Source of the DNA: Thermoanaerobaculia bacterium
GTDB taxonomy: Bacteria; Acidobacteriota; Thermoanaerobaculia; Multivoradales; J023
Assembly: GCA_028066595.1 (NCBI GenBank)
Contig: JALCBJ010000022.1
Span: forward strand, 1 to 64,000
DNA: 64,000 bases
Direction of reading: 5' to 3'
Of the stretch, positions 46,855 to 49,031 are shown piece after piece (position 1 is the first letter of the stretch; every line of letters starts with the position of its first letter). Both the position numbers and the translations under genes were made by a program. The notes under the pieces are model-generated. The model had not been told where the DNA came from. It was given only the letters and a program-made list of their open reading frames with translations, and made no database searches.

Positions 46855-47520
46855 GTCCTCGATCGGATGAGCCAACCCGACGGTGTGATGGTCTCGTGCC
46901 GCGGCAGGCAATACCAGGGTGATGCCGCACTCGTGACCTTTCCGGTCGGCGTCCTGGCGTCCGGAGACATCACGTTCACACCGCCTTTGCCCGCGGCCAA
47001 GCAACGCGCGATCGCCGATCTGGGCATGGGAGTCCTCGACAAGCTGGCCCTTCGCTTTCCCCGGGCGTTCTGGCAGCCTTCGCGAGATCTCGTCGCATCC
47101 GTGGATCGCCGGCACGGGCACTTCCCGGTCTTTCTCGATCTCTATCGTCACACCGGAGTACCGATCCTGGTGGCCTTCCACGCCGGCCGGGAAGCGAGAC
47201 GCCTGCAGTCGAAGGCCGAAGCAGCCGTCGTTCGAGACGCGATGGTCGTTCTTCGCCGCATCTTTGGACGCGGCGTCCCCGAGCCCGAGGCGGTGGTCCG
47301 GAGCACCTGGGCCGCCGACCCCTTCTCTCGTGGCTCCTATTCCTACTTGCCCACGGGCACCTCGGCCGATCTGTTCGACCAGCTGGCCGAGCCCTTCGAG
47401 CGTTTGTTCTTCGCAGGCGAAGCCACGAACCGGACCCACCTGGCGACGGTCCACGGTGCCTATCTGAGCGGTTTGCGAGAAGCCGAGCGCATCGCCAAGT
47501 CGCTACCTCGCTTCGCCTGA
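46855..47520 (+). pseudogene. C-terminal fragment of a flavin amine oxidase
   Basis: The frame encodes about 220 residues of the C-terminal half of a monoamine/polyamine-oxidase-type flavoprotein. ALVTFPVGVLASGDITFTPPLP and IADLGMGVLDKLALRFPRAFW are the central strand and helix. STWAADPFSRGSYSYLPTG and LFFAGEATNRTHLATVHGAYLSGLREAERI form the FAD-contacting C-terminus. The family is about 450-500 residues and begins with a Rossmann GxGxxG motif, which is missing. An ATG at 46867 could start a truncated product, but family similarity begins just before it. Without the dinucleotide fold it should not bind FAD. Confidence 0.75.
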
Positions 47521-47549: not shown

Positions 47550-49031
47550 ATGAACGCAATTCGTACCCAAGGCGATCCGATTCTGCAGCAGCCCTGCGAG
47601 CCGGTATCCGCCCAGGACGTCGACCTCGCCGCAGAGGCCGAAGCCTGCCACGAGGCGTTGGCACTGTTTCGGGCCGAGCACGGATTCGGCAGGGCCATCG
47701 CTGCACCCCAGCTCGGCTTCGCCAAACGCTTCGTCTGCCTGAACCTCGGAGCGACACCGTTCACCGTGATCAACCCCGAGATCACCTGGCGAAGCGAAGA
47801 GAAGTTCGAGGTCTGGGACGATTGCCTGAGCTTGCCGGACATCGTCGTGCGTGTAGAGCGTCATCGCTCCATCTCCTTGACCTACGTCGACGACCGAGGC
47901 AGACGTCGCACGTGGGAACGCCTTCCCGAAGACATGAGCGAGCTGCTGCAACATGAGATCGACCACCTCGATGGCATCCTGATGACACAGCGCGCCGCCG
48001 GATCCGACGCCGTGCGGCCGATATCCGAGCACGCTGACCTGGTAGGAGCCGAGCGACGCGAACACCGTCTCTCGCTGCCGGCCATCGCGAGGGCGGCCGA
48101 AGCGGTAGACCCCGTCTTCCTCCACTCTCCGCAGTTCGAAAGCGAGTCGCTGTCCGCCGAGCTCGCCTGTTCCCTGACATTGAAGGTAGAGACCGTCAAT
48201 CCGATCCGATGTTTCAAAGGACGAGGTGCGGACTATTTCGTTGCGGACCTGGTGCAGAGAGGCGACGAGCGGCCTCTCGTGTGCGCCAGCGCCGGCAACT
48301 TCGGACAGGCCATGGCCTATGCCTGTGGCAAGCACGGGCGCCCACTGACCGTCTTCGCCGCCACCACGGCCAACACCTTGAAAATCGAACGAATGAAAGC
48401 CCTGGGCGCTGAGGTCCGACTCGCCGGTCGTGACTTCGACGCCGCCAAAGATGCAGCGCGCGAGTTCGCGCAGCAGCGGGGTGCGCTGTGGGTCGAGGAC
48501 GGGCGCGAGCCTGCGATCAGTGAGGGAGCCGGTAGCCTGGCCGTCGAGCTCCTGGCGAGAGACGACGCTTTCGACGATCTGCTCGTACCCCTCGGCAACG
48601 GCGCGCTACTGGCCGGCGTCGGCCGCTGGTTCCGGGCAGCCTCGCCAGCCACCCGAATCGTCGGTGTCTGCAGCACCGGGGCCGACGCCATGGCCCGTTC
48701 GTGGCGCGAGGGTCGGATTGTCCAAGGCGACTCGGTTCGGACCATTGCGGATGGCATCGGCGTTCGCGTGCCCGTACCCGAAGCCCTCGCCGACCTGGAA
48801 GGCCTGATCGACGACGTGGTGCTGGTGGACGACGAGGCGATCCTCCGCGCGATGCGACTGATCTTCGACCACACCGGACTTCTCACGGAGCCAGCAGCGG
48901 CGGTCGGCGTGGCGGTACCACTGACGGACACCCGCTTCGTCGGGAGCCGCGTCGCGACGATCTTGACCGGCGGCAACATGACGGTCGAAGAGACCGAGAG
49001 TCGACTGTTTCGACGGAGGATCGAACGCTGA
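47550..49031 (+). CDS. Fusion of a peptide-deformylase-like domain and a threonine-dehydratase-like PLP enzyme
   Basis: A 493-residue two-domain protein in one continuous frame. Residues 1-150 are peptide-deformylase-like. Motif 1 is GRAIAAPQLG, motif 2 DDCLSLP (metal ligand C92) and motif 3 LQHEIDHLDG (H135, E136, H139). All metal and catalytic residues are kept, but motif 1 lacks the usual GxGLAAPQ glycine and motif 2 has DD for EG. Residues 185-490 are a fold-type II PLP enzyme of the serine/threonine-dehydratase group. Its Schiff-base Lys is K223 in RCFKGRGA, its phosphate loops are SAGNFGQA (247-254) and LVPLGNGALLAGV, and its cofactor-end motif is TGGN (473-476). I know of no characterised enzyme with this pairing. 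No second deformylase, fmt or amino-acid pathway gene is nearby. The start at 47550 fits deformylase N-termini. Confidence 0.9.
   Translation: MNAIRTQGDPILQQPCEPVSAQDVDLAAEAEACHEALALFRAEHGFGRAIAAPQLGFAKRFVCLNLGATPFTVINPEITWRSEEKFEVWDDCLSLPDIVVRVERHRSISLTYVDDRGRRRTWERLPEDMSELLQHEIDHLDGILMTQRAAGSDAVRPISEHADLVGAERREHRLSLPAIARAAEAVDPVFLHSPQFESESLSAELACSLTLKVETVNPIRCFKGRGADYFVADLVQRGDERPLVCASAGNFGQAMAYACGKHGRPLTVFAATTANTLKIERMKALGAEVRLAGRDFDAAKDAAREFAQQRGALWVEDGREPAISEGAGSLAVELLARDDAFDDLLVPLGNGALLAGVGRWFRAASPATRIVGVCSTGADAMARSWREGRIVQGDSVRTIADGIGVRVPVPEALADLEGLIDDVVLVDDEAILRAMRLIFDHTGLLTEPAAAVGVAVPLTDTRFVGSRVATILTGGNMTVEETESRLFRRRIER

Follow-up and report, generated by a model that had tools for sequence, protein, structure and literature searches.

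The window, i.e., the whole stretch of 64,000 nucleotides that was analyzed, lies on contig C170 of a draft genome of 7.5 Mb in 228 contigs, which its relatives assign to the Acidobacteriota. On its forward strand, a single uninterrupted reading frame of 493 codons, with an ATG start and no internal stop, encodes a protein in which a peptide deformylase (PDF)-like domain is followed by a threonine-dehydratase-like PLP domain (Table 1). An earlier sequence-only reading had seen one continuous frame joining these two enzymes, and both Pfam domains are indeed complete. The residues C92, H135, E136, and H139 stand where that reading had placed them, and its wording of the altered motifs, GRAIAAPQ and DDCLSLP, agrees with the sequence. 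Its statement that the PLP motifs are kept holds for K223 and TGGN, but the phosphate loop, although in place, is altered to GNGAL from GGGGL. No ACT domain was found in the PLP part by the Pfam scan. An AlphaFold2 model of the fused protein, based on 47 sequences, reaches a pLDDT of 93.4 and a pTM of 0.81, and only the linker at residues 161-170 and the extreme C-terminus are poorly modelled.

Table 1. Features of the fused gene, with positions given in the window.
Feature	Position	Strand	Basis
Fused gene, PDF-like and fold-type II PLP (threonine-dehydratase-like) domains, 493 aa	47550..49031	+	Pfam, motifs, homologous fusions
PDF-like domain, residues 2-151 (PF01327, Pep_deformylase)	47553..48002	+	Pfam (E 5.9e-30, 104.4 bits; gathering cutoff 22.8); confidently modelled structure
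Altered motif I GRAIAAPQ, residues 47-54; Arg48 nearly constant across clade	47688..47711	+	Motif/clade alignment
Altered motif II WDDCLSLP, residues 89-96, with metal ligand Cys92	47814..47837	+	Motif/clade alignment
Motif III QHEIDHLDG, residues 134-142; metal ligands His135/His139 and Glu136 intact	47949..47975	+	
PDF C-terminal tail/linker, residues 151-172	48000..48065	+	Conservation lowest here; model confidence lowest (161-170, pLDDT 57)
PLP domain, residues 173-481 (PF00291, PALP, match at 193-474)	48066..48992	+	Pfam (E 1.3e-67, 228.7 bits), fold match
Schiff-base lysine K223 in CFKGRG	48216..48218	+	Sequence
SAGN, residues 247-250	48288..48299	+	Sequence position
Phosphate loop GNGAL, residues 349-353, changed from GGGGL; kept throughout clade	48594..48608	+	Sequence, clade alignment
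TGGN, residues 473-476 (LTGGN, 472-476)	48966..48977	+	Sequence

No promoter, terminator, or RNA family was found at the fused gene. Upstream of it, the gene at 46867-47520 (forward strand) encodes only the C-terminal half of a flavin amine oxidase (Pfam profile positions 232-442) and ends 29 bases before the fused gene; in none of the three frames farther upstream could an FAD-binding half be recognized, so that it seems to be a remnant. The same genome contains three clear threonine-dehydratase-like paralogs and a weaker one, as well as two further PDF genes with the canonical motifs GVGLAAPQ and EGCLSIP, and the housekeeping role is covered by these two canonical PDFs.

The same fusion in other genomes

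The same two-domain order was encountered in three other genomes, belonging to the Acidobacteriota and the Myxococcota. A scan of one genome per bacterial or archaeal species uncovered a full-length fusion in the acidobacterial MAG OFTM328 (67% identity), which is evidently a genome of the window's family. Another is encoded in a member of another family within the order (55% identity), and within the class 3 of the 149 genomes scanned contain the fusion. The fourth case, on an 11.9 Mb myxobacterial contig, shows 57% identity over residues 37-478 and is the only match at E ≤ 1e-75 among 331 Myxococcota genomes. In its assembled sequence the frame of the PDF part shifts once, directly ahead of motif I, owing either to a sequencing error or to decay of this copy. 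The four fusions are distributed over two phyla, and three of them are intact. The myxobacterial genome also possesses a second, intact and stand-alone gene of the PDF clade described below. The sequence-only reading had proposed that the two domains act together and had named homologs never carrying both as grounds against it; the homologous fusions bear out the partnership.

In all fusions the junction is the same, the C-terminal tail of the PDF directly meeting HRLS, the native N-terminus of stand-alone PLP proteins. The three intact fusions share 57-68% identity in the PDF half, 54-67% in the PLP half, and 23-55% in the linker. In each half divergence increases from codon position 2 to 1 to 3 (2 < 1 < 3), which shows that both halves are under purifying selection. 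The idea that an assembly indel joined two adjacent genes, which the draft state of the genome might have invited, has practically no chance of being right and is refuted by independent genomes that share fusion and junction at 54-67% identity. The existence of the fused two-enzyme protein is nearly certain, and it is a genuine, rare, and conserved protein.

A stand-alone PDF with 55% identity (L118/L170), situated on a 3.8 kb contig without a PLP gene, has a C-terminal tail resembling the linker of the fusion and may derive from a fusion by loss of the PLP half. Two loci initially read as partial fusions (L033 and L048) lack a PDF domain and were dropped.

Families of the two halves

In the PDF tree, in which the poorly extracted row of locus L083 is to be disregarded, the clade of the fused PDF domain separates from the canonical PDFs of its own genome with support of 100/100. 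The clade is characterized by GR[AG]xxAPQ, WDDC, SELLQHE, and an insert of five residues preceding motif I; position 48 is occupied by Arg in nearly all members, and Asp91 replaces Gly89 of E. coli in most. The motif changes are found clade-wide, and the view that they are peculiar to the fusion is rejected. What stands of the earlier proposal that altered motifs indicate another substrate is that this PDF is not a housekeeping one: besides its place in the tree, the window's domain, with 84.9 bits, does not reach the cutoff of the NCBIfam equivalog TIGR00079 (103.95), and neither does a stand-alone clade member (76.9 bits), as compared to 130.8 bits for a canonical PDF of the same genome (L005). 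The published consensus PhiGPhiAAXQ for motif I and EGCLSPhi for motif II (PMC12690207) are replaced by GRAIAAPQ, with Arg48 and Ala49, and by DDCLSL, respectively. Motif III HExxH and the Cys metal ligand, which are expected of a functional Def, are present (C92, H135, E136, H139), and the three metal ligands together with the catalytic Glu136 are invariant across the clade, fusions included.

Residue 48 corresponds to Ile44 of the E. coli enzyme, which lines S1'. Free N-formyl-Met is a poor substrate of canonical PDFs, and Arg48 could help to bind a free carboxylate, a group that canonical PDFs are not designed to accommodate.

The PLP half belongs to an unnamed and widespread family of stand-alone proteins, with about 45-60% identity, that is encountered in Deinococcota, Actinomycetota, Chloroflexota, Bacteroidota, Gemmatimonadota, Cyanobacteriota, Armatimonadota, Myxococcota, and others. 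It displays the Schiff-base lysine and the Pfam domain of fold-type II PLP enzymes (K223, PF00291). The NCBIfam equivalogs for threonine ammonia-lyase do match, all of those shown below their cutoffs (the best with 191.7 bits versus 421), and the EutB (hydroxyectoine dehydratase) model NF005680 scores 180.9 versus a cutoff of 413. The solved folds nearest to the model are threonine deaminases, namely 8zkv (E 9.1e-31) and TdcB. Fused PLP domains fall into one 11-row group together with some stand-alone proteins (support 91/89) and are not recovered as a single clade. Since the tree test does not reject a single clade (p-AU 0.59 for three, 0.24 for four), the history may have involved one fusion followed by losses, or else several fusions or transfers.

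PDF-clade members also occur in Myxococcota, Actinomycetota, Pseudomonadota, and Bacillota. Among 396 Acidobacteriota genomes, 20 (about 5%) carry the PDF clade, which in this sample is fused only in the window's genome, and 7 carry the PLP clade. The window's genome alone is in both sets and, fusion aside, the stand-alone clades share 0 genomes in this phylum (0.29 expected).

Gene neighborhoods of the stand-alone relatives

Annotated neighbors of stand-alone PDF and PLP genes are largely catabolic. On plasmid pBN1 of Paraburkholderia, an Lrp/AsnC gene is divergent from a run encoding an ABC substrate-binding protein, the PDF, a class IV aminotransferase, a class I/II PLP enzyme, an MFS transporter, and an ArgE-type deacetylase, and in two Burkholderia the PDF-clade gene is likewise flanked by homologs of Lrp, the substrate-binding protein, and the aminotransferase. 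On plasmid pB of Ancylobacter, Lrp, PDF, and ArgE genes are arranged divergently to genes for a class IV aminotransferase, a glycine C-acetyltransferase-like protein, and an amino-acid ABC transporter. In Shinella the PDF gene is the last one of a Liv-type ABC transporter run, following DUF6867, and in one acidobacterium (L184) a CN_hydrolase gene immediately precedes the PDF-clade gene. Other stand-alone acidobacterial PDFs mostly have unrelated neighbors (DUF1800/DUF1501 pairs, PFK, RNB, TPR). Three of the acidobacterial genes (L188, L190, L191) lie between same-strand gene pairs of similar length, whose scanned members are DUF1501/DUF1800 pairs (L188) or DUF1800 (L191). The window and MAG OFTM328 share no conserved operon around the fusion.

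In Pseudonocardia eucalypti (L083, 3760-8033), a PDF-clade gene and a stand-alone PLP homolog are divergent neighbors, with a perfect 16-bp palindrome, GTATCGTATACGATAC, between the starts of the two genes. Next after the PDF gene comes an FCD-type GntR gene. Some 3 kb off, an MFS gene is preceded by a second palindrome site, which has two mismatches; this transporter gene appears to be truncated. In the 9.6 Mb genome of this organism there is no further site with two or fewer mismatches beyond the two at the locus, and the palindrome is absent near a second actinobacterial PDF (L162). The palindrome may represent an operator-like site of a mini-regulon comprising the FCD/GntR, PDF, PLP, and MFS genes. 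Within the genus Pseudonocardia and its order no further close PDF-PLP pair was found, and the divergent pair was seen once only.

Stand-alone PLP genes adjoin Lrp genes in Chelatococcus and Agrobacterium, or GntR and aldehyde dehydrogenase genes in Deinococcus, and their neighbors are varied, with no single pathway shared. An aldehyde dehydrogenase gene is located 3' of the PLP gene in Cyclobacteriaceae and Deinococcus, and in Thermaceae an AzlC-like gene, by eye of the amino-acid exporter type, takes this place (L061, L069, L086, L173; L009, L013, L016). In Ilumatobacteraceae and relatives (L010, L012, L014, L015, L018-L020, L022-L030), the order aspartokinase, methyltransferase, PLP, aspartate-semialdehyde dehydrogenase is kept, a link of the stand-alone PLP gene to the aspartate pathway; a methyltransferase-like gene also precedes the PLP gene in one member of the Myxococcales (L034).

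The deformylase is paired with a lyase in the fusions and in Pseudonocardia and with an aminotransferase in Paraburkholderia, Burkholderia, and Ancylobacter, and both types of PLP enzyme should be able to remove an amino group. As judged from gene content, the stand-alone neighborhoods suggest uptake and catabolism of amino acids and a small-molecule use of the deformylase.

Possible function and comparison with known systems

The reading that we put forward, and to which we give an even chance, is that the fused protein is a bifunctional catabolic enzyme that removes the formyl group from a small N-formyl amino acid, or from a close relative, and then deaminates the product. In the N-terminal domain, a member of the accessory PDF clade, the formyl group would be hydrolyzed with the help of the metal bound by Cys92, His135, and His139, so that formate and the deformylated amino acid are set free. 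The C-terminal fold-type II domain, a threonine/serine-dehydratase-like lyase, would then take the amino group off, yielding a 2-oxo acid and ammonia. Both activities, their order, and the substrate class are what we infer for the fused enzyme; to name N-formyl-Ser or N-formyl-Thr as the substrate would be a guess. Somewhat tentatively, the GR[AG]xxAPQ/WDDC clade as a whole might consist of widespread amidohydrolases for N-formyl amino acids, i.e., small molecules, that serve dedicated catabolic pathways, and of which the fusion would be a self-contained deformylase-ammonia-lyase. Support comes from the conservation of both halves (54-68%) in three genomes and the fourth case in Myxococcota, from the intact catalytic and metal residues beside canonical PDFs elsewhere in the genome, from the operons and the P. 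eucalypti pair, and from the similarity of the PLP fold to threonine deaminases. The catabolic reading is weakened by motif I and II substitutions of the kind that, in type 3 PDFs, is linked to weakened or lost activity (PMC12690207), by the lack of co-occurrence of the stand-alone clades in Acidobacteriota, where PDFs mostly reside beside unrelated genes, and by the lack of a conserved operon at the fusion, the single divergent pair, and the fused PLP domains not being recovered as one clade, even if a single clade is not rejected.

The same pathway logic might be served by other chemistry, if the PDF domain deformylated a formamide other than that of a simple alpha-amino acid, or if the PLP domain carried out beta-replacement or racemization, in a biosynthetic or salvage pathway. 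Such a role would fit PLP domains that, in the fusion and its relatives, score below every curated equivalog cutoff, the phosphate loop altered to GNGAL, and the Ilumatobacteraceae gene lying between those for aspartokinase and aspartate-semialdehyde dehydrogenase. However, Ala248 of SAGN stands at the position of Ser84, the re-face serine of serine racemase, threonine deaminases are the nearest folds, and the annotated PDF and PLP neighbors are largely of a catabolic kind; we consider this possibility unlikely. Improbable as well is a PDF domain that is inactive or nearly so and that has a structural or ligand-sensing role for the PLP lyase, as ACT domains have in IlvA. Activity can be missing in type 3 PDFs, whose motifs I and II are changed (PMC12690207), and the PLP part lacks an ACT domain, but every metal and catalytic residue is invariant in the clade, fusions included, and the two parts are equally well conserved. 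Finally, a working accessory peptide deformylase, tolerant for example of actinonin-like inhibitors, might be joined to an ordinary threonine/serine dehydratase with their chemistry uncoupled. Accessory copies are common, often mobile, and can confer inhibitor resistance (PMC12690207), and the metal site is intact; yet a clade without the EGCLS and motif I patterns and below the TIGR00079 cutoff, plasmid-borne stand-alone members in amino-acid operons, and the presence of the fusion in two phyla render this quite improbable.

PDF is usually regarded as having a single job, in protein synthesis, and as an antibiotic target, and accessory copies as spares or resistance genes. Taken together with stand-alone relatives in amino-acid operons, the conserved PLP fusion indicates that small-molecule catabolism is probably the task of some of the accessory PDFs. 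Catabolism of small N-formyl amino acids is not a known use of the PDF family, and if the catabolic reading is true, the fusion reveals a second function of the PDF fold; it also offers a testable substrate class. GR[AG]xxAPQ combined with WDDC provides a new annotation rule and cautions against counting such genes as peptide deformylases. A search of the open-access literature retrieved no published peptide deformylase-threonine dehydratase fusion and nothing on N-formyl amino acid catabolism by PDFs.

HutG and YlmB are hydrolases of N-formyl small molecules with other folds. Like them, the fused enzyme would take a formyl group off a small molecule, in catabolism or salvage, although their folds are unrelated to PDF, and we know of no hydrolase of the HutG/YlmB type fused to a deaminating PLP enzyme. 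With TdcB, IlvA, EutB, and BhcB the fusion shares the fold-type II PLP domain, the Schiff-base lysine, and the SAGN and GGN-type motifs, the PLP domain being 24-29% identical to solved threonine deaminases. It differs from them in KGRG and GNGAL, in its N-terminal PDF, in having no ACT domain, and in scoring below all NCBIfam equivalog cutoffs.

Similarly, the PDF half has the fold of Def (PF01327), its Cys92/His135/His139 metal site, Glu136, and motif III HExxH. In contrast to Def, it shows GRAIAAPQ for GPhiGPhiAAXQ and DDCLS for EGCLS, five extra residues before motif I, and Glu131 in SELLQHE, lies below the TIGR00079 cutoff, and is placed outside the genome's canonical PDFs in the tree. According to a 2025 survey of accessory PDFs, type 3 PDFs have altered motifs I and II and are weak or inactive (PMC12690207). 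By that published definition only, the substituted motifs I and II beside canonical copies would make the fused domain a type 3 PDF (PMC12690207), from which it is set apart by its PLP partner and by the catabolic neighborhoods of its relatives. The single PDF fusion reported in the survey, def-fmt of Exiguobacterium, is likewise natural and conserved, but there the partner is methionyl-tRNA formyltransferase, with a role in translation (PMC12690207), whereas here it is a PLP lyase.
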